IMG/VR virus record: IMGVR_UViG_3300035701_004184
Span: 1-45,603 of that record
Length of the DNA: 45,603 bases
Source of the DNA: a virus
Reading direction: 5' to 3' (one strand)
A model generated the notes under the pieces. That model saw only the letters and a program-made list of their open reading frames with translations, was not told the DNA's origin and did no database searches. The position numbers were made by a program, and so were the translations under genes. Of this stretch, positions 2,327 through 42,233 are shown one piece after another. Numbering within the stretch: position 1 is the first letter of the stretch; each line of letters starts with the position of its first letter.

Positions 2327-2536
2327 TCAAGAGGGTAGTTTGAGGCTAAATCGCCCAGTCTTTGGGTCGCGGTTAGGAAAAGAGGTCTTTAGTCCCGCCA
2401 CTTTTAAGTAGCGATAGCATGAGGTTATAGTTAGACCCACCATTTGCGCTATCTCTTTTACCGTTTTCCCCGCTTTGTAGAGGTCTATCACATCCTGGTA
2501 CTTCTTCGTTAGTCTTAGAAACTTCGCCTCGAACAT
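2327..2536 (-). CDS. Helix-turn-helix protein
   Basis: 69 residues from the ATG at 2536. An alternative ATG at 2578 would add 14 hydrophobic residues and looks less likely. It contains a clear resolvase/homeodomain-like HTH: YQDVIDLYKAGKTVKEIAQ, a turn, then MVGLTITSCYRYLKVAGL. A short basic C-terminal tail ends in TGRFSLKLPS. This kind of domain is common in small phage regulators and in recombinase DNA-binding regions; no catalytic domain is present here. The gene overlaps the preceding one in another frame for about 160 nt, which is unusual for this phage, where 4-nt overlaps are the rule. Confidence 0.6.
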   Translation of the reverse strand: MFEAKFLRLTKKYQDVIDLYKAGKTVKEIAQMVGLTITSCYRYLKVAGLKTSFPNRDPKTGRFSLKLPS

Positions 2537-2693
2537 TATTAGGAGTATATACCTTATTACTTGTTGTGTCAATGGCATCTCTTTTCTCTATTGCCCGTTG
2601 AATACATCTTGCTTGGGCTTCAATGAGTTTCCGGCGCGACGGGTCGGTTTTCCATTTCTCCCTAAGTTCGACTAACTTTTCTTCTAAATTCAT
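2373..2693 (-). CDS. Small hypothetical protein, first gene of leftward operon
   Basis: 106 residues. The N-terminal 45 residues (MNLEEKLVELREKWKTDPSR, then RKLIEAQARCIQRA) look like a real helical phage protein. Short proteins of this type usually end after 40-60 residues. The remainder (Asn/Gly/Ser-rich) is encoded where the HTH gene is read in another frame and has no protein-like pattern. The true product may be full length, or the 3' part may be incidental. It lies directly downstream of the regulatory element at 2709-2818, so it is probably the first gene transcribed from it. Confidence 0.5.
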   Translation of the reverse strand: MNLEEKLVELREKWKTDPSRRKLIEAQARCIQRAIEKRDAIDTTSNKVYTPNNVRGEVSKTNEEVPGCDRPLQSGENGKRDSANGGSNYNLMLSLLKSGGTKDLFS

Positions 2694-5084: not shown

Positions 5085-5555
5085 TTAGGTTGTGGCATAA
5101 AGTCCGTAATGATATTTCTGTTCGGCTTTTTTCCTTGCTTCATAGGCCTCCTTGATTGTTTTAAATATTCCTATATGAATCTTTTTATAGTTAATCTTTA
5201 TTTGAGCTGTATATCTTCCTGTTTGTTTATGAAAAGCCACTCCTGTGTGGCCTGTTTTATTATTTGATCTGACCTGATTTTGTAAATTTCCTTGGATTGT
5301 AGTAATCCTTAGATTTTTTCTACGATTGTCAAGCGTGTTCCGATTTATATGATCGACAACCATCCCTTTCGGAATCGGCTGTAATATAAATCGTTGAACT
5401 GTAATACTGGTCTTTCTAGGCAAATCAATCCTTGCATAAAAGTAATGGGATACTTTATGGATATAAGGCTTAAAGATTTTAATTTTTTCCCAGTCCCCCT
5501 TGTCGATTAAAATCTTAAACCTTCCGTGGGTTGGCGAATTGATAATAAAAAACAT
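5085..5555 (-). CDS. HNH homing endonuclease with AP2 DNA-binding domain
   Basis: 156 residues. The N-terminal part carries an HNH core: VVDHINRNTLDNRRKNLR (D68, H69, N77, N81). An AP2-type module follows at about 101-150 (TGHTGVAFHKQTGRYTAQI, then HIGIFKTIKEAYEARKKAE). This domain pair is typical of free-standing selfish homing endonucleases in phages. It sits between the endolysin and the small membrane genes. It looks more AT-rich than its neighbours and does not take part in the ATGA overlaps around it, both consistent with insertion. It probably cuts a related allele lacking the insertion rather than serving the phage. Confidence 0.85.
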   Translation of the reverse strand: MFFIINSPTHGRFKILIDKGDWEKIKIFKPYIHKVSHYFYARIDLPRKTSITVQRFILQPIPKGMVVDHINRNTLDNRRKNLRITTIQGNLQNQVRSNNKTGHTGVAFHKQTGRYTAQIKINYKKIHIGIFKTIKEAYEARKKAEQKYHYGLYATT

Positions 5556-5582
5556 ATTATCAATATAACACGTTTGACCACG

Positions 5583-6008
5583 TTACGCAATAGTCTTTTT
5601 AGGGTGCAACCAACCAAGAACGCCCCGGTACTTATGGTTCACATACCGACAGAAACTTGGGTTTGACCAATTCTGATCGAAAGTAACCAGACCATAAGTG
5701 GAAGCGGTTGAACAAATAGCTACATGACCCGCCCAGCCGGTCACGAAGGGATAGTAGCCCCAAAAGACTATATCTCCCGTTCTAGGGGCATTGTACGGGC
5801 CGTTAGGTACCTTCCCGAAGTAGTCGTTGCCTACAAAGTTCTTGAATATATCCTTAGCATATCCCGCCGGCGGCATTGAGGCTTGAGGATACCCCAAGAC
5901 TTCTTTGATGTACTGCCTGGCGAGATCGACGCACTGGAAAAGGTATTGGTCGTTATTAAACTCGCAATATTTACCATTCCACTTGTTGAAAAAGGATTGT
6001 GGTGTCAT
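5583..6008 (-). CDS. CHAP-domain endolysin
   Basis: 141 residues, essentially one CHAP domain: Cys26 in FQCVDLARQYIKE, GDIVFWG (78-84), His95 in AGHVAIC, and the third polar position in TFDQNW (110-114). CHAP enzymes are amidases or endopeptidases that cut peptidoglycan. There is no cell-wall-binding domain and no signal peptide, so release should depend on a holin. The ATG overlaps the stop of the XhlA-like gene (ATGA), linking both as a lysis pair. Confidence 0.85.
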   Translation of the reverse strand: MTPQSFFNKWNGKYCEFNNDQYLFQCVDLARQYIKEVLGYPQASMPPAGYAKDIFKNFVGNDYFGKVPNGPYNAPRTGDIVFWGYYPFVTGWAGHVAICSTASTYGLVTFDQNWSNPSFCRYVNHKYRGVLGWLHPKKTIA

Positions 6009-16569: not shown

Positions 16570-19500
16570 CTAGATATACTTACCAATATAGTTTAAGTCT
16601 GGGGACTCAAGTTTAATTCTCCCTCCAGTTTCTTGCTGAAGGTACATCCCATCTTCCATTAATAGACATTCGAGATACTTCGGGCCATAAACATTATTTA
16701 CATCTGAATACTTACTCCCGTAGGCAACATTATCCTCCAAGACAATATGTCCACCAGTTTCCAATAAAAGATACATCCCATTCTGCATGAGTAAAGATGG
16801 TTGGTATTCGGGAGCAAAAACATTTCCGGTGGTCGTATATTTGTTTCCAAAGGCAATCGCATCTTCTAGGGGTATGCGCCCTCCAGTTTCCAAGAGAAGG
16901 TAGAATAGATCCTCCATCATTAAACAAGGAACATATTTAGGCCCATATATCTCAGGCGAGGGCGAAGGAGAGGGTGAGGGACTCAGCGAGGCGCTCGGAG
17001 AAAGTGAAGCACTTCCTGAGGCTGAGGCGCTTTTGCTAACCGAAGCCGACGGGGACAAACTCGCTGATGGGGAAAGAGACGCGGATGCGCTTGCCGAGGG
17101 ACTCAATGAGAAAGACCCTGAAGCCGATGGGCTGAGAGACCAACTCCCACTGGCTGACGGACTAAGAGAGAATGATCCGGAGGTAGAGGGTGAGAGGGAG
17201 AACGATCCAGAGGCACTTGGGGATAAACTGTAACTGGCCGACGCCGAGGGACTTAAACTATACGACCCACTCGCAGACGGGGAAAGACTCTCTGAACCTG
17301 AAGCACTTGGAGACAAACTTACTGACCCCGAGGCGCTGGGACTCAAAGACCCAGACGCCGAAGCCGAGGGAGAAAGGCTGGCACTAGGACTTAAACTGAA
17401 ACTGCCACTTGCCGAGGGAGACAAAGAGGCGCTGGCACTGGCCGAGGGGGACAGACTGGCCGAAGGAGACAGGCTCTCGCTTCCACTCGCTGAGGGTGAA
17501 AGAGAAGCCGAACCGCTTTCTGAAGGCGATAAACTTGCGCTGGGACTTAATGAAGCGCTTTCGGATGCGGAAGGACTTAAAGAGAAAGACCCGGATGCCG
17601 AAGGTGAAAGGCTGGCCGAGGGTGACAATGAAAAACTCCCTGAGGCCGATGGACTCAGACTGGCACTTCCAGAGGTGCTTGGACTAAGACTAGCGGAGGG
17701 CGAGAGTGAGAACGAACCCGACGCAGATGGAGACAGACTTGCTGAACCACTAGTGCTCGGTGAAAGAGATTCTGACGGACTTAAACTGAACGACCCGCTA
17801 GCACTAGGTGAGAGGGAAAACGAGCCCGAAGCACTGGGACTTAATGAGTATGACCCACTAGCACTAGGAGAGAGTGAAAATGATCCTGACGCACTTGGAC
17901 TTAAAGACTTTGACGCACTGGTGGAGGGGGAGAGGCTGGCTGAAGGTGACAACGAGAAACTACCACTAGCAGATGGGGAGAGAGAAAAACTTCCGGACGC
18001 ACTTGGAGAAAGGCTAGCCGAGGGACTTAGGCTAAATGATCCACTAGCGGAGGGTGAAAGTGATTTACTTGCCGAGGCGCTGGGACTCAAGGAAGTGGAT
18101 GGGCTAAGTGAAAAAGACCCCGAGGCAGATGGACTGAGACTAAACGACCCACTAGCACTAGGTGAAAGCGAGAACGATCCAGAGGCACTTGGGGATAACG
18201 ACGCTGAAGGGGATAAACTAAAGCTACCCGAGGCGCTAGGACTAAGAGAGAACGACCCACTGGCTGAGGGAGAGAAACTTCCCGACTGGCTGGCGCTTGG
18301 CGAAAGTGAGAACGACCCTGACGCACTCGGACTTAAACTAGCACTAGGACTCAATGAAAATGAGCCGGATGCGCTGGGACTCAAAGAGAAAGACCCACTA
18401 GCCGAAGGTGAAGGTGAGGCCGACGGGCTTAAACTAAACGATCCAGAGGCACTCGGACTTAACGAGAACGATCCTGAAGCGGAAGGAGATAGTGAAGCAG
18501 ACGGACTAAGACTGAAACTCCCACTCGCGCTAGGCGACAAAGAGAAGCTACCAGACGCCGAGGGTGAGAGACTGAGGCTTCCACTTGCGCTTGGACTCAG
18601 AGACTTCGACCCCGAAGCTGACGGGCTCAATGAAGCCGAAGGAGAAAGAGAGAAACTACCAGATGCTGAGGGCGAGAGGCTGAAAGAGCCCGACGCTGAA
18701 GGGGATAAACTAGCCGAGGGGCTTAGGCTGAAACTTCCTGATGCCGATGGAGATAAAGAGAAACTTCCCGACGCGGACGGACTAAGGCTGGCTGAGGGAG
18801 AGAGGGAAAAGCTGCCACTGGCTGATGGACTTAAACTGTATGATCCAGAAACACTTGGGGAAAGAGAGTATGACCCCGAAGCCGAGGGGCTTAACGAGAA
18901 TGACCCACTAGCGCTTGGTGAAAGTGAACCTGAGGGAGAAAGACTATAACTTCCAGAGGCACTAGGACTAAGTGAAAACGACCCAGAAACCGAAGGAGAT
19001 AAAGAGAAACTTCCTGACGCTGACGGCGAAAGTGAAAAACTTCCACTGGCGCTAGGAGATAAAGAGGCTGACGGCGAAAGTGAAAAACTTCCACTAGCGC
19101 TAGGAGATAAAGAGGCTGACGGCGAAAGTGAAAAACTTCCACTAGCGGACGGTGAGAGACTAAAACTTCCACTTGCACTTGGGGATAAAGAGAAACTTCC
19201 TGATGCCGAGGGCGAAAGAGAAAATGACCCGCTGGCACTGGGAGATAAAGAAGCAGAGGGAGAAAGTGAGAAACTTCCACTAGCTGAAGGGCTTAAACTG
19301 AAGCTGCCACTAGCTGAGGGACTCAGAGAACCCGACGGACTCAAACTGAAGCTACCACTTGCACTTGGCGAGAGGGAGAATGATCCAGAGGCACTTGGCG
19401 ACTTCGACCCTGACGGAGAAATACTAGAGAAGTTAAATAAATAATAAACCTCATTTGCCGTTAGGGCGGTGCCATTTATCAACCAAACATCATCCAATGA

Positions 19501-21906
19501 GCCAGTAAAGAATAAACCGTTGTCGCCAGTGTTGTTGGCACATCCAATCCGAACAAAATTAGTGGCTTGATACCCAGGAGCCCCACTCCAAGGCCAAGAG
19601 TTATCAAAAACACCGTCAATGTAGATTAAGATATTAACCCCATCCCAGATGCCAGCAATAAAGTGCCAGTTGCCATCAGTAACTGTCGCGTTGCTTGCCT
19701 GAAACTCATAATCTATTCCCTCAACAACACCCGTATTACAATAAATCCCAAAACAGACCTTATTTGAAGAATTGAGGTAAAGTCTCCACCCAGCCACCTT
19801 GCTCGATAACTGGCAGTAACTTTGAAATAAGAACTGGCTAGCACCCGTGGTTGAGGTTTTAAGCCACAGTCCTACAGTAAAACTTCCCGTAGGCTGAAAG
19901 TCGGCATGATCTGTTATTGAGTAGGCATCGTTGCCATCGAGAACAACCCCTCCACCAAATCTCCCAACCCCTTCTGCTGGGTCACTTATATCTGTTAAGG
20001 TATGTGCATCTTTAGAGTCGGTTGTTAAGGCACCAGTCGAGAATCGGTAGTATGCCACCGTGGTCGCACCACCGAACTCGGTGGTGTCGAAAAACTCCGG
20101 AGCTAACCATCCAGCACTAGGACTAGGACTAGGTGAACCCGAGGCGCTAGGACTTAATGAAGCGCTACCACTCGCCGATCCACTCGCCGACGGAGACAGT
20201 GAAGCAGAGGGAGACTGGGAAGCAGAATAAAGACCGTAAATATCAGCAATATCGTTTGACCCAAGACACGTTCCGTTCAAGAGAAAGACGTCATCTATCG
20301 ATCCTGTAAAGAATAGGGCATCAGTGCCAGTGTTGTTGGCACATCCAATACGGACATAGTTCGTTGCCTGATAAACTGGGGCATTGGCCCAGGCAGTCGG
20401 GCCAACGACTAACACCCCATCGACATAAAGACATAAACTCGCCCCATCCCAAGTACCAGCAATAAAGTGCCACACACCATCAGCCAGACTCACCGCACCA
20501 GTTATAAGTTTGTAGTCGGTATCAATTATGGTTCCCGTGTTCTTGTAACTGCCGAAGTTAATTTTATTGGCAGTATTCAAATAAAACCGGATTCCTGCCA
20601 TCTTACTACTACCCTGGGCGTAACTCTCGAAGATATATTGGTTGACCCCAGTAGTCGAAGTCTTAATCCACATTCCTACGGTGAAATTACCGGTAGGTTG
20701 AAAGTCGGCATGGTTAGTTGCCGAGTAAGCATCATTCCCATCCAACGCCACCGCACCATTAAACTCACCCGCAGCGTCTTCGGCAGGATCGCTTATGTCT
20801 GTCAAGGTATGCGCACCCGCACTCGTGTCTGTGGTTAATGCACCCGCCGAAAATCTGTAATATGCAGCGGGAGGATAAGTACCGATTAGTTCGTTGAACT
20901 CGCGCGCAGTCGGGGGATCCCCCGAACTTCCGCTGGCAGATTCACTAACTGATTCCGAAAAAGAACCACTGGCTGAAGTGCTAGCCGACACTGAGGTACT
21001 TTCTGAGGCCGATTGGGATAAACTAAAACTTCCCGAAGCGCTAGGGCTAAGACTGAAACTCCCACTCGCGCTAGGCGAGAGGCTAAAACTCCCCGACGCA
21101 CTAGGACTCAGCGAAGCTGACGGCGAGAGAGAAAAACTTCCGCTGGCACTCAGAGATTTCGAGGCTGAGGGAGAAAGAGAAGCCGAGTATGGTGGATAAT
21201 CACTTGTATAAGTAAGAAGGATTTGTCCATCAGCACCCAAACTATAACCAGCAGTAGTGGCATCACCCCCACCTCCACCACCACCGGGGATACCACCATT
21301 ACCACCAAGTTGACCATCAGTATCTCCACTTCCTGCACCGCCGCCACCACCTAAGTCATTTGCCGCACCATTTTGTCCAGCAGAAGTTCCACCAGTACCA
21401 CCCGAACCATGATCCCCACCACCGCCATCACCATGCGCACTAGCACCTGCGGCGACACCATCCAAACCAGTTCCATCTTTACCAGCTGCTCCTCCTCCTC
21501 CACCACCCACATCTGATGTCGTATGAGCATTTTCACCTGCACCACCACTTGTACCAGCAGGAGTACAACTCGCACCGACACCACCAGCGGCACCAGTGGC
21601 GGTACTTGTACCCGTACCACCTATTGCTACTACCGTAGTTCCGCCAAAAGTAGAACTTGGGGCTACACCCGCAGTATCTCTTGCACCACCCGCACCAACA
21701 ACAATGGCATAGTTATTCCCAGGAGTAACAGCAACAGAAGCATTAACAGTATAGGCTCCACCGCCACCTCCTCCTCCACCACTTGCACTAGCATATCCTC
21801 CTCCACCACCAGCACCCCACGCCTCTACCTTGATTGAATTTACATCAGGTGGACACTGCCAACTATATGTTCTTGCTATGTTATATTTTTTTGTTTGGGT
21901 TGCCAT
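16570..21906 (-). CDS. Giant Ser-rich repeat tail protein with Gly-rich and two LamG-like domains
   Basis: 1778 residues. The N-terminus (about 1-235) is a Gly-rich fibre domain ([23 protein letters not shown]). Then come short Ser repeats and two LamG/concanavalin-like domains (about 338-560 and 599-825, each with [19 protein letters not shown] and WHFIAG.WDG). A run of roughly 80 decapeptide-like units ([10 protein letters not shown] and variants) covers about 827-1650. The C-terminal 125 residues hold three copies of a motif ending [11 protein letters not shown] or similar. The repeat tract is mucin-like: Ser, Pro, Ala, Gly and an aromatic in each unit. LamG domains bind glycans or proteins. 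It is probably a long virion fibre, and the Ser tract is a plausible glycosylation target of the neighbouring island. SD AGAGGT abuts the ATG. Confidence 0.8.
16956..19424 (-). repeat. Ser-Pro-Ala-Gly coding repeat tract
   Basis: About 80 degenerate 30-bp units encoding [10 protein letters not shown]-like decapeptides. Most units differ at synonymous positions, so the DNA repeats are much less alike than the protein repeats. The same unit occurs in the head-fibre-like gene at 34010-34920. Confidence 0.85.
19021..19140. repeat. 48-bp near-perfect tandem repeat, 2.5 copies
   Basis: The unit starts at 19021, 19069 and 19117, with one visible mismatch (19048 vs 19096). It encodes 16 residues within the Ser-rich tract. 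Nearly identical copies stand out from the diverged units around them and mark a recent slippage or unequal-exchange event. Confidence 0.8.
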
Positions 21907-21965: not shown

Positions 21966-23591
21966 TTAGTACAGTTTCTTCACCAAATCTTCCGTTTTAC
22001 CCCACCCCGGAATCTCCATATCCGATTCCAACCACCCCGTACAAGTAGACTTATCTCTGAAGTCATCCTGGCTCCACTTATCGGGAGTCAGGTTAGTTCC
22101 GTGTCTAACGTCCACAATCGGGAACTCCGACTTCCACCATTCAGACCTACCATCTCTCGTGCCTGGCTCAAAACTCACCGTCTTATACGAAAATCCGTTT
22201 TTTTCAATAAACTCCATGATTTTTTTGTATTCCACTAACAGTAAGTCTCTATGGGCACACAGCCCCGAGAGCTGATCGGCGTCAAAGTGTACCGCATGAC
22301 CATCCGACCTTAACTTCCAGAAATTCCTATTGTAATAAAACTTATCCTTTGTCGGTGGTATAAAGTCAAAATGGGATGGGTGATACATAACATCATGCTC
22401 ACAAAAGAATATCCACTCCGCCTCACTATTTTCTATCGCTGCGTAAATTTGCTTAGCCATAGCGAAGTATCCCCGTTTAAGATGGGGAAAGTGAATGTTC
22501 TTTTTACCGAAAGCAATCTTCTTGAGAGAGGAACTGACAATGGGGATATTCTTTTCTTGACTTATCTTCGCTAAGTTCTCTTTCACTGCTTCAGCGAGTT
22601 TCGGTTCGAGTTGATTATCGGTATAAAAGATCATCCCCTTCGCTGCGCCTTTCTCACTTTCTTTAAGTTTTACTAAATCCGCATCCGTCCAACCTTTTAC
22701 TGGCCAAAATTTCTCTAACAACCAAGAAAGAGGGTGGATGGTTTTCGGCCACTTACTGTTGAAAAACAACTCGCGCGCATGCGCCTTGGCTTTAGATACC
22801 TGACTCCCCGATAAATGATATGGAAATCCAAAGTCGCCACCTTTCGTGCGAAAGAGGTGCGCATACCAAGTCTCGTGATTCACGAGTACGCGCCCACCCG
22901 AGAGCCAGGTCTTACAAGCAACCTCTATTCCTTGACTTCCCCATGACCCAAACTCCTCGCTACACAAATCCAACTCGAAATACTTCTCACGGGTACACAT
23001 AAAGCACGACCCCTGTAAGGACATCGTTTCTGAGATAGGCCCACTCCACCCTGGCCTTCTAGTCCAGTCTCCGAAATATTGAAAATGAGGTTCGGCATCG
23101 AAGCAAAACGACACAGCCTTGGGATTTCGCTTAGCAATCCATACAACTTCCTTTACAGTAGGCTTCTGACACTCTGTACACGGCCCAGAAAGCCCCTGAT
23201 AACGTCGGTGGCCATCTGGACACACCCAATCGAAGACGTGCAGGTTTCTCATTAAGGGCGCCATCGTTACATTGTCCCCAGTCACTTTGAACGCTTCGAT
23301 CATCTTCACATCGAAACCTTTGTCAAAAGCACAGTGGGCGTCTATCTTCATTACATATTTAGATCGAGAAAGTCTAGCTGCTTCATTTGTGGCCGCGCGC
23401 TGTCCCAATGCTTGACTATGCCTAATTATCACCAGTCGAGAGTCTTCGGGAAGCGGGGAAATAGGAATCGTATAACCATCAAGGGCAACAATAATCTCGG
23501 TGTCCCCCTCAATATTAGATAGGATGTCTTCAATCGTCCGACCCAACCACTCTTCATTACAAGATGGGATAAGAATAGAAAGTATTGACAT
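21966..23591 (-). CDS. Bifunctional glycosyltransferase (GT2/GT27-like plus second GT-like domain)
   Basis: 541 residues, apparently a fusion. Residues 1 to about 310 form a GT-A glycosyltransferase: SILIPSCNEE start, DAHCAFDKGFD (DxH, D84/H86), LQGSCFMCTREKYFEL, and GSWGSQGIEVACKTWLSGG with a following AHLFR. These blocks resemble polypeptide GalNAc-transferases (GT27) and related GT2 enzymes. From about 320 on (GMIFYTDN...) the protein is clearly homologous to the 246-aa gene at 25930, sharing FFCE.D..YHPSHFDF, a conserved Leu-Ser-Gly Cys block and an EPG tract. An internal CPDG...C..C cluster (about 125-145) may bind zinc. Donor sugar and acceptor are unknown. It starts inside the divergent promoter region shared with the RHH gene. 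Confidence 0.8.
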   Translation of the reverse strand: MSILSILIPSCNEEWLGRTIEDILSNIEGDTEIIVALDGYTIPISPLPEDSRLVIIRHSQALGQRAATNEAARLSRSKYVMKIDAHCAFDKGFDVKMIEAFKVTGDNVTMAPLMRNLHVFDWVCPDGHRRYQGLSGPCTECQKPTVKEVVWIAKRNPKAVSFCFDAEPHFQYFGDWTRRPGWSGPISETMSLQGSCFMCTREKYFELDLCSEEFGSWGSQGIEVACKTWLSGGRVLVNHETWYAHLFRTKGGDFGFPYHLSGSQVSKAKAHARELFFNSKWPKTIHPLSWLLEKFWPVKGWTDADLVKLKESEKGAAKGMIFYTDNQLEPKLAEAVKENLAKISQEKNIPIVSSSLKKIAFGKKNIHFPHLKRGYFAMAKQIYAAIENSEAEWIFFCEHDVMYHPSHFDFIPPTKDKFYYNRNFWKLRSDGHAVHFDADQLSGLCAHRDLLLVEYKKIMEFIEKNGFSYKTVSFEPGTRDGRSEWWKSEFPIVDVRHGTNLTPDKWSQDDFRDKSTCTGWLESDMEIPGWGKTEDLVKKLY

Positions 23592-23613
23592 ATACTTACA
23601 ATGTATGTATAAT
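23585..23613 (+). promoter_or_regulatory. Consensus sigma70 promoter of the RHH/Tad2-like cassette
   Basis: TTGACA at 23585-23590, exactly 17 bp, then TATAAT at 23608-23613, a perfect match to consensus. The RHH ATG lies at 23624, so the leader would be only a few bases. The -10 overlaps the palindrome at 23607-23618. Confidence 0.85.
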
Positions 23614-23618
23614 TATAC
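23607..23618. promoter_or_regulatory. Palindromic operator candidate (RHH gene)
   Basis: A perfect 12-bp palindrome, GTATAATTATAC, containing the -10 and placed 5 nt before the RHH start codon. The same palindrome lies at 41967-41978, 4 nt before the TerS start. A bound regulator would block the promoter; RHH proteins commonly bind short palindromes. Confidence 0.55.
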
Positions 23619-23623
23619 CATAT

Positions 23624-23791
23624 ATGATTCGTTGTAACTTCTATTTAACGATCGAGCAGAAGAAACGTCTCGAAAAACTTTCTCAGGCATCGGTTGCAGA
23701 ACACATCCGCCGAGCCATTGACGAATACTTGAAACGCCACGCACCCACCTACACGACTTCTCCTTCAAAGAAAGGAGGTAGACATGGTTAA
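23624..23791 (+). CDS. Ribbon-helix-helix (Arc/MetJ/CopG-type) regulator
   Basis: 55 residues. RCNFYLTIEQKKRLEKLSQ forms a beta strand plus helix 1, and ASVAEHIRRAIDEYLKR forms helix 2, the classic RHH arrangement. A basic Lys/Gly tail follows. RHH proteins dimerise and use paired strands to bind short palindromic operators; one overlaps its own promoter. No SD precedes the ATG, which is almost at the predicted transcription start (leaderless or nearly so). It overlaps the next gene by 8 nt. This and the next gene are the only plus-strand genes in the genome, inserted within the sugar island. Autoregulation is inferred. Confidence 0.8.
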   Translation: MIRCNFYLTIEQKKRLEKLSQASVAEHIRRAIDEYLKRHAPTYTTSPSKKGGRHG

Positions 23792-24050
23792 ACTTCAACA
23801 GGTTCCTCCAGCACAAAAGTTTGAAAAGGCCCATATTGTCAAAGGTCCCATCCCGATGATGACCTTTCCCGAAGCGATAAAACAAGTTATCGAAGGCAAA
23901 GTGATTACCAAACTTGAATGGGGAGATGAAAACATCTATGGAGCGCTTTTGGCCGGTAGACTGAAAATTCACAAAGACGACAACAAGTTCTACGATTGGA
24001 TTCTTAACGACGGCGACTTGACGGGAACAGATTTTATAGTAATCTCTTGA
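23784..24050 (+). CDS. Tad2-like (DUF2829-type) candidate anti-Thoeris protein
   Basis: 88 residues from the ATG at 23784, which has a full SD (AGGAGGT, 5 nt away). The core from about residue 25 reads MTFPEAIKQVIEGKVITKLE, then W, and ends with YDWILNDGDLTGTDFIVI. This follows the DUF2829/Tad2 pattern: F.EA...L..GK...R..W, then a Trp and a final TDW/F.V strand. Tad2 proteins bind and sequester the gcADPR signal of Thoeris defence. Here the match is by eye and the usual central region is shorter, so family membership is moderate. Location in a two-gene plus-strand cassette behind an RHH regulator fits an early anti-defence module. Confidence 0.5.
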   Translation: MVKLQQVPPAQKFEKAHIVKGPIPMMTFPEAIKQVIEGKVITKLEWGDENIYGALLAGRLKIHKDDNKFYDWILNDGDLTGTDFIVIS

Positions 24051-24097: not shown

Positions 24098-24910
24098 TTA
24101 ACATAGTGCCTTATAAAGTTCGGCTATCTTTGAGATATGGTATTCTTCGGATTTTGCAATGCACTTCTGGGCGTACTCGTCATATAGCCACGGTGCAGAC
24201 AGGAGTTCGTCTAATCTGGCAAGGAACTCCTCAAAGTTATTGACTGGGATATAACAATCCCCCATCTCATCAAAAGCCTTTTCATGGAAGGCGATAGTCG
24301 GGATTCCGAAAGAGGAGGCATTGACTAATTTCAAGGGATTCCTCATCTTCATCTTATAAGGTCTCCAGACAATCTGAACGTCTACCTTCATAAAAGCATC
24401 TACAACATCTTGTCGTTTGGCAAACTTAGAATAAGCGTAAAGTGTCATTCCCCGCTTTGCTAACTCATCGTTTAAGGCTGGAGGAAAGAATTGAAGATCG
24501 AAGGTGCATCCAATAGCCCCGAGAGTTTTAATTCCCGTTCTCGTCCTTCTAATTCGCTCATAATTGCAGTTGTGCTGGGGGATAAAGACAACTCTATTTG
24601 GTAGATCTCTTTTTAGGGAGTCGTAGTCGAACTTCGAGAGAGCGATCACCGGCACCTCAGGATGTTTCAAAAGTAAAGAGGTTAGATCCCATGAGTCAAC
24701 AATGTCTAAATACGGTTTCCCTTCAAACTTAAAATCCTCAAAGTTCTTAACGTGGGGCTTCACATAAATACAGACATCATTCTCATATCCCTCAGTCGGG
24801 TTTAACTTCGCCCCAAGATACTCGGCGATCTGATTGCCTCGGATTAAGGAAGAAACTCGCATTAGATGGCGTTTCCCTTTGAACATTCTTTTCGCGAAAA
24901 TAGAGATCAT
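24098..24910 (-). CDS. GT-B type glycosyltransferase (GT4-like)
   Basis: 270 residues from the ATG at 24910, which makes the ATGA overlap typical of this operon with the upstream methyltransferase stop (a longer start at 24919 is possible). The C-terminal half shows the GT-B donor-binding region: LGAIGCTFDLQFFPPALND, MRNPLKLVNASSFGIPTIA, and a FEEFLARLDELLSAPWLYDE helix. The N-terminal half is short for GT4 and has no obvious membrane segment. It would transfer a sugar from an NDP-sugar. It is the last gene of the sugar island's main leftward run before the plus-strand cassette. Confidence 0.7.
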   Translation of the reverse strand: MISIFAKRMFKGKRHLMRVSSLIRGNQIAEYLGAKLNPTEGYENDVCIYVKPHVKNFEDFKFEGKPYLDIVDSWDLTSLLLKHPEVPVIALSKFDYDSLKRDLPNRVVFIPQHNCNYERIRRTRTGIKTLGAIGCTFDLQFFPPALNDELAKRGMTLYAYSKFAKRQDVVDAFMKVDVQIVWRPYKMKMRNPLKLVNASSFGIPTIAFHEKAFDEMGDCYIPVNNFEEFLARLDELLSAPWLYDEYAQKCIAKSEEYHISKIAELYKALC

Positions 24911-25446
24911 ATGTTCCATTTCTTGTGGAAATACCAGGAAACCGACTCTTTCGGATTAGTTGTTGTTTCCAAATTTAAGACATGACACTTAATGTAGGTG
25001 CTTACAGCCGTCACGATTCCCTTGTGGGTCGTATCGTCTGAATGGACAACGTAGTCATGTCCCGAAACAATCCCCCCTTTTCTGACTTTCTTGGTCCACT
25101 CGATAAGGTCCCGCATGACATCATCAAAAGAATGTCCGGCATCAATGTAAACGAAATCCAAAGATCCATCGGTGAAGTCCTTAACTGCGTCCAAACTAAA
25201 CTTTTTAATTAGCGTAGCATCATAAGAAGCCAGTCGTTCCTGAACTCGTTCATACTTCCTTCGGCGGTGGTTCATACAAACGCCGGTCTTTATATCCCAA
25301 CAGTCTATGCAGTAAAGTTTCACTCCAGGAATCTCCCTACAAAGAACCTCCGAATAGTCTCCTTCGTCCACGCCAATTTCGGCCCCGGTCTTATAACCGA
25401 GTTCTTTGAAATACTTTGCTAATTCTGTACGGTTACTACAAGACAT
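24907..25446 (-). CDS. SAM-dependent methyltransferase (Methyltransf_24-like), paralog 1
   Basis: 179 residues from the ATG at 25446 (a TTG at 25458 would add four). Motif I is GAEIGVDEGDYSEVL. It is followed by LYCIDCWD, KKFSLDAVKDF, SLDFVYIDAGHSFDDVMRDL and GGIVSGHDY, a class I methyltransferase layout. Three other genes in this island (26719, 27360, 28013) share these blocks and are clearly paralogs. The likely substrate is a sugar hydroxyl on a glycan, judged only from context. Confidence 0.75.
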   Translation of the reverse strand: MSCSNRTELAKYFKELGYKTGAEIGVDEGDYSEVLCREIPGVKLYCIDCWDIKTGVCMNHRRRKYERVQERLASYDATLIKKFSLDAVKDFTDGSLDFVYIDAGHSFDDVMRDLIEWTKKVRKGGIVSGHDYVVHSDDTTHKGIVTAVSTYIKCHVLNLETTTNPKESVSWYFHKKWNI

Positions 25447-25933
25447 ATTTTTTAACAATTTCGGATACTTTCATCCTTTGGGCCGTCACGTTCATCTCAC
25501 AGTTCCAAGTAGGAATAAGATTGACCCAGTGCAAAAACTCGTCCTTCTCGACCACATACCGATAGGTGTCTCTAATCTCTATCGGCTCGCCTTCCTTCAT
25601 CTGGTTACGAAGTGTGTTGATAAGGGTGTGGGGATTAGTCCCCCAAGTGATATTTCCCAATCTCATAATCGCGAAGTGAGGAAGTTCTTTAACCATTGCC
25701 TCCATCTCCAATTTATGTCGGGTATATCGAGTATCGGAATAGAACACCGCCAGAGTTCCAAAGTAAACGAGTTGCCTATCCCGGCACTCTGACACCACAC
25801 TTGTAAGAAGGTCTTTCTCTCTTTGGTACTCCGACTCTCTGATCTCCTGGCTGTTACTGACTCCTGACGCGAAATACAACCGATCTGGACGATCAGTCAA
25901 AACACTGGCTATGTCGCCGTGTCCGCTTATCAT
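25436..25933 (-). CDS. Short SDR-type NAD-dependent epimerase/dehydratase
   Basis: 165 residues, about half the normal length for extended SDRs. It keeps the catalytic YxxxK (YTRHK), a preceding LVYFGTLAVF strand and the FAIMRLGNITWG region. The N-terminal GxxGxxG nucleotide-binding segment is missing. It could be a truncated enzyme, a family of short SDRs typical of phage sugar islands, or a subunit. It lies 4 nt overlapped (ATGA) with the gene upstream. Sugar epimerase/dehydratase function is an inference from family and context. Confidence 0.6.
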   Translation of the reverse strand: MISGHGDIASVLTDRPDRLYFASGVSNSQEIRESEYQREKDLLTSVVSECRDRQLVYFGTLAVFYSDTRYTRHKLEMEAMVKELPHFAIMRLGNITWGTNPHTLINTLRNQMKEGEPIEIRDTYRYVVEKDEFLHWVNLIPTWNCEMNVTAQRMKVSEIVKKYVL

Positions 25934-26718: not shown

Positions 26719-27363
26719 TTATTTTTTCACCCAGAACCATGAACGGTATTTGTCTCGTATGAGACCATTTCCACAGACTGACAATCCCGGAACAAAGTAG
26801 GGGTGCATCCGATAACATCGCGCATAGACCTCTAGGACTCGTTTAACGTGGTTAAACTTCCTATAAGAGAAATAGGCATAATCATGACCTGCCAGAATCC
26901 CATCCACTTTAACTTTCTTCTTCCAAGTATCTAGGTCGTTGGTTATATTCACGAAGTCATGGTTGGCGTCTATGTAAACAAAGTCGAAATAGTTATCGGG
27001 GAAGTCCTTGGCCGCCTCAAGCGAGGTTTTCCTGACAATCGTACAGTTATACGGAGCGAGTCGCTCTTTGGTCTTTTCGTAACACCCGTCAAAGTACGCC
27101 TGTTGCTCATTCACGCCCGAGAGTCCTGAGGGATAAACGTAAGAGGCCCAAGGATCGATACTATACAAATGTAACTTAGAGTTGGCCTTGCATAGAACCT
27201 CGGAGTAATCTCCCCTATCCACTCCGATCTCCGCACCCGTATTCAGGTTTAACTCACCAAACAACTTCGCCAGATCGTCACGTCCCATATTGGGGATCTC
27301 AATGAAGAACTGCCTCCTAACAGTTATATTATACTTTTTTAAGACGTATTCGTAATTCGTCAC
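26719..27363 (-). CDS. SAM-dependent methyltransferase, paralog 2
   Basis: 214 residues. Same blocks as the other copies: GAEIGVDRGDYSEVL, LYSIDPW, RKTSLEAAKDFP, FDFVYIDANHDFVN and GILAGHDYAYF, ending SWFWVKK. The N-terminal extension (MTNYEYVLKKYNI) is shared with the next two paralogs but not with the first. It overlaps the next upstream gene by 4 nt (ATGA). Glycan O-methylation is the likely but unproven role. Confidence 0.75.
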   Translation of the reverse strand: MTNYEYVLKKYNITVRRQFFIEIPNMGRDDLAKLFGELNLNTGAEIGVDRGDYSEVLCKANSKLHLYSIDPWASYVYPSGLSGVNEQQAYFDGCYEKTKERLAPYNCTIVRKTSLEAAKDFPDNYFDFVYIDANHDFVNITNDLDTWKKKVKVDGILAGHDYAYFSYRKFNHVKRVLEVYARCYRMHPYFVPGLSVCGNGLIRDKYRSWFWVKK

Positions 27364-28016
27364 GTTTTTACCCAGAACCAGTTTCCATAAAGGTCACGCC
27401 TGGGTTTCTCGTGCCTTCGCGGTAGGACAAAGAAAGGAATCATCTTGTAAGAAGTCGCATAAGCCATTAGTGCCTCTCTAACGTGGATCATCTTGTAAGA
27501 CTTGAATCTCATGTAATCATGGCCAGCCACAATTCCTCCAACTCGCACCTTATCTTTCCAGTAATGGAGATCAAGGGTAAAGTTTACGAAGTCGTGTCCC
27601 GCATCTAGGTAAACAAAGTCCAGCGATCCATCTTTAAAATCTTTCACCGCTTCCATTGAAACCTTGCGGATAATCGTGCAGTTGTAGGGAGATAGTTTCG
27701 CAGTCGCTGTTTTGTATGCTTCGTCGTAATATGGCTGACTCTCCGAACCTGGAAGGGGATGTGACTGAGCTAGAAATCCTATAGGGTAAGACTCGATCTT
27801 CCAAGAGTCTATACTGTAGAGATGGAGTTTCGGGTTAGCATCACATAGAATCTTGGAATAGTCCCCATGCAAGACTCCAACCTCGGCCCCCACCGTGAAT
27901 CCCAACTCGGCAAATAAAGCCGCTAGATCGGGACTTCCCATGTTCGGAATCTCCACCATATATTTATGCCCGATTTTAAGGTTGTACTTTTTAACGATGT
28001 AGTCAAAAGTATTCAT
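27360..28016 (-). CDS. SAM-dependent methyltransferase, paralog 3
   Basis: 218 residues from the ATG at 28016, chosen because it makes an ATGA overlap with the upstream paralog's stop. Motifs are GAEVGVLHGDYSKIL, LYSIDSW, SMEAVKDFKDGSLDFVYLDA and GGIVAGHDYMRF, ending NWFWVKT. A 15-residue insert rich in Pro/Ser (SHPLPGSESQPYYD) follows the second motif. It is close in sequence to paralog 2. Confidence 0.75.
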   Translation of the reverse strand: MNTFDYIVKKYNLKIGHKYMVEIPNMGSPDLAALFAELGFTVGAEVGVLHGDYSKILCDANPKLHLYSIDSWKIESYPIGFLAQSHPLPGSESQPYYDEAYKTATAKLSPYNCTIIRKVSMEAVKDFKDGSLDFVYLDAGHDFVNFTLDLHYWKDKVRVGGIVAGHDYMRFKSYKMIHVREALMAYATSYKMIPFFVLPRRHEKPRRDLYGNWFWVKT

Positions 28017-28627
28017 TCTTTCACAAAAAACCAACTCGTTTGGTAGTTCCGATTAGGTAGAAATAACATCTTGATACCATGATTCTTGACGTAAGTATCT
28101 ATGGCCCGTCTTGAACCTAAGGTCATAAACCAATATTTGTAATGGCCGTAGTCGTGTCCACTGACTATTCCACCAGGCTTAACAATCTTCGCCCAGGCTT
28201 CTATATCCTCCAACACATGACTATAGTCGTGGTTAGCGTCTATATAGACGAAATCTAAAGTTTCGGGAGCGAAGTGTTTAACCGCCTCCATACTGGTCTC
28301 CCTGAGGATCTTGCACTTATAAGGAGCAAGGCGTTTACCCGTCTCTTGACAACACTCATCCAGAAACTTTTGGTTGTTGGCATAGAACTCAGGGACTTCG
28401 CTCTCATAGATTATCCAAGGATCGATGCAATATAATTTGAGACCAGGATTCTGTAGACATAAGGTTTCCGAGAACTCCCCCTTGTAGACCCCAACCTCTG
28501 CTCCGACCTTAAAGTTTAACTCCCTAAACATCCCCGCCATGTCATACCTTTTGAATACAAGTCTAACCGGCGACTTTGTATCAGGGCCGATGTCAAACTT
28601 CTTATTAACAAACTCCAGTGTGTTCAT
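28013..28627 (-). CDS. SAM-dependent methyltransferase, paralog 4
   Basis: 204 residues from the ATG at 28627 (ATGA overlap with the next gene). Motifs are GAEVGVYKGEFSETL, LYCIDPWI, RETSMEAVKHF, LDFVYIDANHDYSHVLEDI and GGIVSGHDYGHY, ending TSWFFVKE. Three such genes in direct succession, each with 4-nt overlap, imply tandem duplication followed by divergence, perhaps for methylation of different sugar positions. Confidence 0.75.
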   Translation of the reverse strand: MNTLEFVNKKFDIGPDTKSPVRLVFKRYDMAGMFRELNFKVGAEVGVYKGEFSETLCLQNPGLKLYCIDPWIIYESEVPEFYANNQKFLDECCQETGKRLAPYKCKILRETSMEAVKHFAPETLDFVYIDANHDYSHVLEDIEAWAKIVKPGGIVSGHDYGHYKYWFMTLGSRRAIDTYVKNHGIKMLFLPNRNYQTSWFFVKE

Positions 28628-29121
28628 TTCCAAAAGTCCTCCAAACTAACTAAATTACTCAAGACGGCAGCCTTCCTATCATCCTTATTCCACACCGTCT
28701 TATACTTGAATAAAGGATAGATTTCCGAATAATGGTAGATCTTATCTTTCTCGGGGTTGGCATCATGGATAATGATGTATTTGGCCAACTCCGTTAACCG
28801 CCTGATTTCTATGGCGCGACTGGAGTCGGGAGTCTGATCGATTAGTACCACATCCCAGGGTTTGTCTATCTTCGCCTTGGCATAATCATCAATAATGATA
28901 ATCTCGTGGTTAGGACACGAATAACCGTATTTAATGAAAAAGTTGGCCCAAGATGGATAGTTCTCATAAGATACCAACTTCCGATCTGAGAGAAGGCATT
29001 GATAGTGAAGGTATGGAGTGCTAAAAATTCCCATCCCCAATTCCAACACGTCTCCCGTAGTTTTCTCCATCGCTTTTATCAGACAGGGCAGGTGGGTTCC
29101 GTAGTGGCCCGAGACATTCAT
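28624..29121 (-). CDS. Methyltransferase-like protein
   Basis: 165 residues from the ATG at 29121, again chosen for the ATGA overlap. GDVLELGMGIFSTPYLHY is a class I motif I-like segment, and WDVVLIDQTPDSSRAIEI and KYIIIHDANPE give the following strands with acidic residues. It is not closely related to the four paralogs. Substrate unknown; context suggests sugar or glycan methylation. Confidence 0.6.
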   Translation of the reverse strand: MNVSGHYGTHLPCLIKAMEKTTGDVLELGMGIFSTPYLHYQCLLSDRKLVSYENYPSWANFFIKYGYSCPNHEIIIIDDYAKAKIDKPWDVVLIDQTPDSSRAIEIRRLTELAKYIIIHDANPEKDKIYHYSEIYPLFKYKTVWNKDDRKAAVLSNLVSLEDFWK

Positions 29122-40404: not shown

Positions 40405-41589
40405 CTAATTTATTCCGATCTCCGGGTATAACGACTTAATTCCTCCGAAGTCGGTTTGGGGCTTAATGTGGGTAGGCCGCCTACTCGCGATAGCATATCG
40501 AATTGCATCCATATGATGATTGAAGATCGGACTTGGCTCGTTAATGATCTTACCGTCTTTATCTGTCATCCACATATAGTTTCGGTACTCTTTTAATGTG
40601 TCTACGCTTCGTTTTGTGATGAAGATCTTTTGTGACCGGAGATACTGGATACCATATAAGACCGAATCCTTACCCTTAACCACCCCCGTAATGTTTAGTT
40701 TATAGTCATGCGCCAGTTCGTCTATGCTCTTTGGCTCTGCGCTGTCGGCCATAACTAGGGCCTTGGGTTGCGCGTTGATGATATTAGCAATGTCTTTGTT
40801 ATACAAACCAGACTGATGTGTAATTTGATCTACAACGTAAGCGCCATTCCAATAATAGACTGCGTCTATGGCTGTAGGATCGTTGGTATAGCCGAAGTCC
40901 AGTCCATAACACTCAAGCCTCGCCTCTTGGGGTATATCGTCGAGTATCTCCCACCCCGTGTATATCCTGCCTTCTGCTTCACCTAGTAACCCCTCACCAT
41001 ATACCCTCCACCAGTTCTTATTACTACGCCGAGCCTCTATTGTCGTAACAATTTGCGAATTAAGTGCCTCGTTATCCCGATAAGTAAGCGTGATAAAGTC
41101 GCAATCCATCTTACCCATAACCTCCGTGTACCACCAGAACTCCTGCACCGGGTTCCAGTCGAGCCAAATAATGTCATTGGTTCGGATTTCTAACTGAGTG
41201 TAAGTCTCGTAACTAATATTGTTGGCTTCGTTAATGAAAAGAATATCTCGCCTTGGCCCCCTAACCTTCCCAGGTTGATCGGCACTAAAAAACTCTACTC
41301 TTGATCCGGATTCAAACTGATAAATAAAGTCAGTCTTATTCCATCGCACATCACTAAAGTATCCCTGCTTCTCCATTATGTTTAAGAAATCTCGTATGGC
41401 TCCGCGTTTAAGGTGAGGAAAGCTCTCAGAGACTACTGATATAGTTTTATTTGGGTGTGATTGCGCGAAATCAATTAAGATTAGAAGAATCGAAATTGTT
41501 TTTGAAGCACCCGTGCCACCAGCAACGCCCCTTATTCTTTTATTCAGTCGCAGGAGTTTCTGCGTTGCCGTTGTCTGTATGAACTCCAT
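40405..41589 (-). CDS. Terminase large subunit
   Basis: 394 residues from the ATG at 41589 (50-nt overlap with TerS). Walker A GGTGASKT (24-31), Walker B DILFINEAN (115-123), and the nuclease acidic residues D231 (LDFGYTNDPTA) and D283 (MADSAEPKSIDEL) with a C-terminal HHMDAIRYA. This is the ATPase/nuclease motor that packages DNA into the capsid via the portal. The Walker A has Gly-Thr-Gly-Ala in place of the more usual R/K-rich loop. Confidence 0.9.
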   Translation of the reverse strand: MEFIQTTATQKLLRLNKRIRGVAGGTGASKTISILLILIDFAQSHPNKTISVVSESFPHLKRGAIRDFLNIMEKQGYFSDVRWNKTDFIYQFESGSRVEFFSADQPGKVRGPRRDILFINEANNISYETYTQLEIRTNDIIWLDWNPVQEFWWYTEVMGKMDCDFITLTYRDNEALNSQIVTTIEARRSNKNWWRVYGEGLLGEAEGRIYTGWEILDDIPQEARLECYGLDFGYTNDPTAIDAVYYWNGAYVVDQITHQSGLYNKDIANIINAQPKALVMADSAEPKSIDELAHDYKLNITGVVKGKDSVLYGIQYLRSQKIFITKRSVDTLKEYRNYMWMTDKDGKIINEPSPIFNHHMDAIRYAIASRRPTHIKPQTDFGGIKSLYPEIGIN

Positions 41590-41962
41590 TCGTAACTCCT
41601 CCCAAAATAGACTTGACAGGTTTACCTCCACTGGTTACGTCCAGTGCCGACTTCTCAATCATGTCATGGTTCACTTTTAAGAGAAGCATAACTATGGTGG
41701 CGTTGATCTCTTTCCCTCCAAAGATCCCTATTTCGGTCAAATACTCCTTTTGCTTTAGCTTTAATTCATCTAAAGTGTCGGAAAACTCTTTGTGATCTTT
41801 GGCCCATTGATAGAGTGTGTCTCTATTTATCCCCAGTTTAAGCGCTATTCCTTCTACTGTCGGTATCTTCATGTTTTGGGGAACCGCTTCCGCCATGTAT
41901 TCATTTATCTGCGTTATCACTTCTGGAGTATACAGGGTGGGTCTACCGCCGGGATGTGCCAT
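41540..41962 (-). CDS. Terminase small subunit
   Basis: 140 residues. GGRPTLYTPEVITQINEYM, VEGIALKLGINRDTLYQWAK and FSDTLDELKLKQKEYL form the N-terminal HTH (DNA recognition), and IVMLLLKVNHDMIEK the following helix. This is the usual DNA-recognition small subunit. It overlaps TerL. The start codon lies 4 nt after the palindrome GTATAATTATAC (contains TATAAT on this strand), with no SD, so the mRNA may be leaderless. Confidence 0.85.
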   Translation of the reverse strand: MAHPGGRPTLYTPEVITQINEYMAEAVPQNMKIPTVEGIALKLGINRDTLYQWAKDHKEFSDTLDELKLKQKEYLTEIGIFGGKEINATIVMLLLKVNHDMIEKSALDVTSGGKPVKSILGGVTNGVHTDNGNAETPATE

Positions 41963-41966
41963 ATAT

Positions 41967-41978
41967 GTATAATTATAC
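41967..41978. promoter_or_regulatory. Palindromic operator/-10 candidate before TerS
   Basis: Identical 12-bp palindrome to that at the RHH gene (23607-23618). From the palindrome to the start codon the two sites differ by one inserted base (CATATATG vs ATATATG). No good -35 is seen. It overlaps the 3' end of the winged-helix gene. Confidence 0.5.
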
Positions 41979-42233
41979 TACCGTCCTCAACAAAACATAG
42001 TAAGTTTTATTTGAAACTATACAAGCTCTTCTAATGTATCCCTTTTCAAGAAGAGAGTTGAGCGCCCAGACAACGGTGGGTGGCTTAGGATGCTTACCCG
42101 CCTTTCCCATAACAAGTATTATTTCCTTTTGGGGGACCGGCGTCTTATGTTCGCGCACCCACAAGGCAATAAATCTCATTATCTCCATATGGAATACGTT
42201 TAACTCATCTAGGTTGATGTAGTCTGTGGGCAT
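41973..42233 (-). CDS. Winged helix-turn-helix DNA-binding protein
   Basis: 86 residues. EIMRFIALWVREHKTPVPQK (helix), PPTVVWALNSLLEKGYIRRA (recognition helix plus start of wing) and SNKTYYVLLRTV (wing strands). The fold is MarR/LexA-like. It stands just upstream of the terminase genes and could regulate late genes. No ligand or partner domain is present. Confidence 0.7.
   Translation of the reverse strand: MPTDYINLDELNVFHMEIMRFIALWVREHKTPVPQKEIILVMGKAGKHPKPPTVVWALNSLLEKGYIRRACIVSNKTYYVLLRTVV

Follow-up and report, generated by a model that had tools for sequence, protein, structure and literature searches.

A divergent Tad2-fold protein and its RHH partner form a recurrent cassette, a candidate anti-defence moron, in uncultured phages

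What do two small phage genes do when they face against nearly all of their neighbours? The question is raised by a unit in the IMG/VR virus record IMGVR_UViG_3300035701_004184, of which we analysed positions 1 to 45,603 (the window, meaning this whole 45,603-nt stretch). Genes for terminase, the portal region and the major head are present in the window, as is an extended series of genes for glycosyltransferases and methyltransferases, and almost all of them lie on the minus strand. The cassette is a single plus-strand unit located between a glycosyltransferase family 2 (GT-A) gene (21966–23591, minus strand), to which it is head-to-head, and a glycosylation-island gene without a Pfam match (24098–24919, minus strand), with which it is convergent; both are flanking context outside the cassette. 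The remaining plus-strand ORFs examined all overlapped minus-strand ORFs, and two seeming gaps contained small minus-strand ORFs, in agreement with a previous sequence-only reading that had singled out these genes as the only ones against the general direction. A tRNA search of the window found none, and no intrinsic terminator was found downstream of the cassette. Two further features of the region were recorded. A 1778-aa protein with long repeats (16570–21906, minus strand), which may be a glycosylated virion fibre, adjoins the glycosyltransferase island, and a tandem expansion inside the island comprises three successive Methyltransf_24 paralogues (26719–28633, minus strand) and a fourth at 24907–25458.

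The cassette has a sigma70-type promoter, TTGACA-17-TATAAT (23585–23613, plus strand), which matches the consensus at 12 of 12 positions and whose −35 box falls within the opening codons of the divergently oriented glycosyltransferase gene. No further 12/12 site was found in a scan of 22.5–25.0 kb or across the whole window. The perfect promoter had been recognized by the sequence-only reading, which also placed the gene start at 23585; that TTG belongs to the −35 box, and the real ATG is at 23624. The first gene (23624–23791, plus strand) encodes a 55-aa protein that matched Pfam RHH_1 with an E-value of 8e-4 (score 19.6 against a cut-off of 20.5). Profile similarity extended to RHH chains of the CopG/NikR/ORF56 type. 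The monomer model formed two helices (residues 10–19 and 24–39) and left the N-terminal strand unformed, and Foldseek returned a sole chain, Reg576 (6gyg), with a weak and uninformative Z of 2.8. The profile matches and the two helices support, with moderate confidence, the earlier call of an RHH (CopG/Arc-type) DNA-binding regulator. The RHH C-terminus has a conserved SxSxSK tail, and its last codons double as the Shine-Dalgarno sequence of the next gene.

In all 14 cassettes that we collected, TTGACA lay 35–39 nt upstream of the RHH start, which should put the first nucleotide of the transcript at the start codon or no more than a few nucleotides from it, and the RHH mRNA is predicted to be nearly leaderless. 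This architecture is general in these phages and not cassette-specific: TTGACA-to-ATG distances peaked at 36 nt (16 cases versus about 1 for most other spacings). In this clade of phages, leaderless-type starts seem to be common, and many genes also lack an obvious Shine-Dalgarno sequence; one example in the window is the gene at 2327–2578 (minus strand), with a near-consensus promoter TTGACA-17-TATACT at 2572 and an ATG 36 nt from its −35 box.

What distinguished the cassette promoters was a repeat over the −10 region. They exhibited an 11-bp self-similarity (z 4.9) that differed from 19 further promoters of the leaderless type in the same phages (Mann–Whitney p=5e-4), and TGTGT was present in 8 of the 14 cassettes but in 0 of the 19 others; the motif was noticed first and then tested, which makes these z and P values post hoc. 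At 11 bp, the repeat recurs once in every helical turn, a spacing that fits side-by-side RHH dimers. We designated 23591–23623 (plus strand), which overlaps the −10 box and contains the palindrome GTATAATTATAC at 23607–23618, as the predicted RHH operator. By analogy with acr-aca loci, the repeat points to autorepression by the RHH protein. Separately, GTATAATTATAC followed by ATATATG occurs twice in the window, at 23606–23626 over the cassette −10 box and at 41963–41985 (palindrome 41967–41978), the second copy lying directly upstream of a TerS-like (terminase small-subunit) gene (41540–41962). The chance of a second exact copy was roughly 0.6% from base composition, and shared control is possible.

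The second gene (23784–24050, plus strand) overlaps the RHH gene by 8 bp and encodes an 88-aa protein, which we call mini-Tad2. Its Shine-Dalgarno sequence, GAAAGGAGG (23770–23778), places GGAGG 5 nt ahead of the ATG. The sequence-only reading had noted a full Shine-Dalgarno sequence here and had also suspected a Tad2-like protein. The window protein aligned with the whole Pfam PF11195 (Tad2-like) profile at E 4.2e-4, scoring 21.2 bits against a curated cut-off of 25, and NCBIfam held no matching model. Scans of the viral collection yielded a clade of at least 34 distinct viral sequences, which were aligned; 33 of the 34 matched PF11195 at E<=1e-3 (best 4.4e-10), and a profile built from the first 13 members retrieved SPO1 Tad2 from the PDB at E 7e-9, together with five more Tad2/AcrIIA7 sequences. 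In the AlphaFold model, residues 1–25 form a low-confidence, probably disordered tail, and residues 26–88 form the Tad2-fold core with a pLDDT of about 90. The model matched Tad2 crystal chains with Z of 10.0–11.7 and an rmsd of 1.2–1.6 over 63–66 residues, and Tad2 chains filled Foldseek ranks 1–21; the next non-Tad2 structure was the phage 812 neck protein, at Z 5.3. These results settled the homology and the fold. Many mini-Tad2 N-termini carry an SPxP motif followed by a variable linker; the Shine-Dalgarno sequence by itself explains neither this motif nor the SxSxSK tail of the RHH protein.

Its recurrence in 13 viral lineages other than the window shows that the pair is no chance ORF. 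Eleven of these lineages have the RHH gene upstream of mini-Tad2, adjacent to it in ten and separated from it by a single gene in L027. An independent sample of 21 contigs, retrieved through the flanking glycosyltransferase, contained 2 more mini-Tad2 copies, both with RHH, in L184 and, one gene apart, in L183. Together with the window, these make 14 independent cassettes. Among 120 canonical Tad2 loci, a single weak RHH match was found and none was convincing. Of the new observations, the presence of an RHH partner is the strongest. About 20 clade members lack an adjacent RHH gene, and none was found elsewhere in the 17 of their records that were searched. Three inverted copies without RHH (L018, L021, L022) have a near-consensus promoter 36–37 nt from the mini-Tad2 start, and codirectional copies without RHH are mostly promoterless, consistent with operon read-through. 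In L027, the RHH protein (5536–5802) has a Cys-rich, Zn-ribbon-like tail in place of the usual C-terminus. A third small gene encoding 82–111 aa (FKLKDK...FGFIPEVLIIEKV...IVRA) stands directly before mini-Tad2 in L027 (5820–6026), L183 (3285–3560) and L048 (5596–5931), in two of the three cases after RHH; the L048 copy has no Pfam match, and the gene is possibly a second anti-defence gene. No relatives were found in cultured phages by tblastn (queries: the window protein, L049 and the clade consensus). Two scans of 84,980 species genomes gave no confirmed relative, and there is thus no host link.

The pair can be read most readily as an autoregulated, early-expressed anti-defence moron, its product sequestering a defence signal, a reading to which we give a probability of about 0.55. 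Canonical Tad2 proteins are sponges (PMC12043709), and the question is how far mini-Tad2 resembles them. Peptide patterns of SPO1 Tad2 retrieved no relative from the viral collection, and canonical members were therefore gathered by the motif GWNGKGM. In a tree with 65 of these viral sequences and SPO1, a set from which intermediate forms may be missing because of the motif selection, the mini-Tad2 clade was monophyletic (support 0.998) on a long branch. Mini-Tad2 shares with known Tad2 proteins (SPO1 gp34.65, ModTad2, HgmTad2/AcrIIA7, SptTad2; PF11195) the fold over its residues 23–88, the F-A-G-W...W..D..DW skeleton and a small phage-borne gene. Unlike them, it has an N-terminal tail (often with SPxP) and an RHH partner, and it lacks a segment of about 23 residues, including helix alpha2, that separates beta2 from beta3 in SPO1 Tad2; the core of this segment, SPO1 residues 36–56, had zero aligned mini-Tad2 residues. 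Helix alpha2 is part of the dimer interface, and some Tad2 proteins bind cyclic dinucleotides through an insertion located between beta2 and beta5 (PMC12043709). The sequence-only reading had taken the shorter core as a sign of a divergent subtype. The core is indeed divergent and shortened; shortness alone is not unique, because the Pfam model has only 73 positions and Tad2-like proteins of 60–75 aa are already in BFVD.

The loops also differ. The R-x-G-W-N-G-K of canonical Tad2 becomes K/R-x-E/S-W-x-D/N-x (EWxD) in the mini clade, and the W-x-x-S-Q-T/S-D loop becomes N/S-D/E-G/A-D; because GWNGKGM served to select the canonical sequences, GWNGK is 100% among them by construction, and SQTD and R-x-G are the only unbiased motif contrasts. 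The FPEAI, YDW and TDF elements listed by the sequence-only reading are present, whereas its Tad2-like W lies in EWGD and not in GWNGK. These differences bear on the strongest rival, namely that mini-Tad2 is a classical Tad2, merely shortened, that acts against Thoeris as a sponge for gcADPR (or His-ADPR). The identical fold speaks for it, as do the retention of the invariant Trp, both Asp residues of the TD..DW motif and the terminal W/F; moreover, the reported gcADPR-pocket elements (loops beta1–beta2, beta3–beta4 and beta4–alpha3, and helix alpha3; PMC12043709) all have counterparts in the model. However, both pocket motifs are replaced clade-wide, and the segment bearing helix alpha2 is absent. 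We consider this rival unlikely. The pocket may be present with altered chemistry, the ligand may differ, and an anti-Thoeris role is not assigned. The second protein is best placed as a Tad2-fold member of a divergent clade and is not filed as a gcADPR sponge.

Another way to explain the two genes is a type II toxin-antitoxin-like or signal-sensing pair, in which the Tad2-fold protein would modulate RHH via the SxSxSK tail. RHH comes first, the genes overlap, the predicted operator covers the promoter and the short tail is conserved, all as expected for such a pair. The many RHH-less clade members count against it; in addition, no toxin fold was found, and the RHH tail partly encodes the Shine-Dalgarno sequence of the second gene. 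We regard this explanation as improbable.

The genomic placement of the unit argues for a moron. It was found downstream of the major head gene, ahead of terminase, in glycosylation islands in both orientations, and also in phages of 91–178 kb, and it combines its own promoter with optional presence and changing position and orientation, which supports the early-moron build proposed by the sequence-only reading. Only 2 of the 21 glycosyltransferase-fetched contigs carry mini-Tad2, indicating that the cassette is accessory. A part in the glycosylation island, for example as a sugar-nucleotide binder, was attractive at first, because 11 of the first 12 relatives lay among glycosyltransferase and methyltransferase genes, often adjoining GT-A, but it was weakened by wider sampling and is now very improbable, since roughly one in three members of the wider set lies elsewhere, for example near terminase genes or in phages of 91–178 kb, around a dozen mini-Tad2 loci are outside glycosylation islands, 19 of 21 GT-A loci lack mini-Tad2 within 4 kb, and the unit has its own promoter and regulator. 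As a separate observation, mini-Tad2 is head-to-head with the same glycosyltransferase gene in eight lineages (L001, L005, L007, L008, L009, L039, L054 and the window) and codirectional with it in others (L002, L012), which suggests repeated insertion at one site beside this gene.

For the autoregulated anti-defence moron, we infer early timing, a leaderless start, RHH binding and sequestration of a ligand from what was computed: the gene pair, promoter, conservation, Tad2 fold, missing segment, replaced motifs and −10 repeat. The strong host-type promoter would fire upon infection and give an early burst of RHH and mini-Tad2, RHH being translated off a nearly leaderless mRNA and mini-Tad2 off its own Shine-Dalgarno sequence. 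Judging from fold and context, mini-Tad2 would most likely sequester a nucleotide-type defence signal; because the canonical pocket motifs are absent, it is the fold that argues for signal binding, and the specificity is probably unlike that of the canonical gcADPR and cyclic-dinucleotide sponges. RHH would afterwards bind the repeats over the −10 box and shut the cassette off, as Aca repressors do on anti-CRISPR genes. A fuller version, in which mini-Tad2 proteins are a separate Tad2-fold sponge clade with a rebuilt, more acidic pocket for a defence signal that known Tad2 proteins do not bind, expressed early from a leaderless cassette that an RHH repressor controls in the Aca role, is put forward tentatively.

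The cassette resembles acr-aca operons in its strong promoter, in the co-transcription of a small anti-defence-type gene with a DNA-binding protein and in a predicted operator over the promoter; it differs in having an RHH rather than an HTH repressor, the regulator gene first and a Tad2-fold product instead of an Acr. According to a 2021 paper, repressors of this kind are RHH on plasmids and HTH on phages (PMC8708921), so that a phage-borne RHH protein with this function would count as a variant. On plasmids, RHH repressors lead to transient bursts of establishment genes upon entry into a new cell (PMC8708921). The Reg576-type control (p576/pLS20 family clade II) likewise combines an RHH repressor with a transient early-gene burst, as proposed here, whereas the cassette is on a phage, is a single operon, has a leaderless-type start and carries mini-Tad2 as cargo.

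Should mini-Tad2 prove to be a sponge whose pocket differs, it would be a probe for an immune nucleotide signal still unmatched to a Tad2-type protein. The arrangement of an RHH gene, TTGACA about 36 nt upstream and an 11-bp repeat also offers a search handle, much as promoter motifs have served in archaeal viruses (PMC11065993), and could flag anti-defence genes in uncultured phages.
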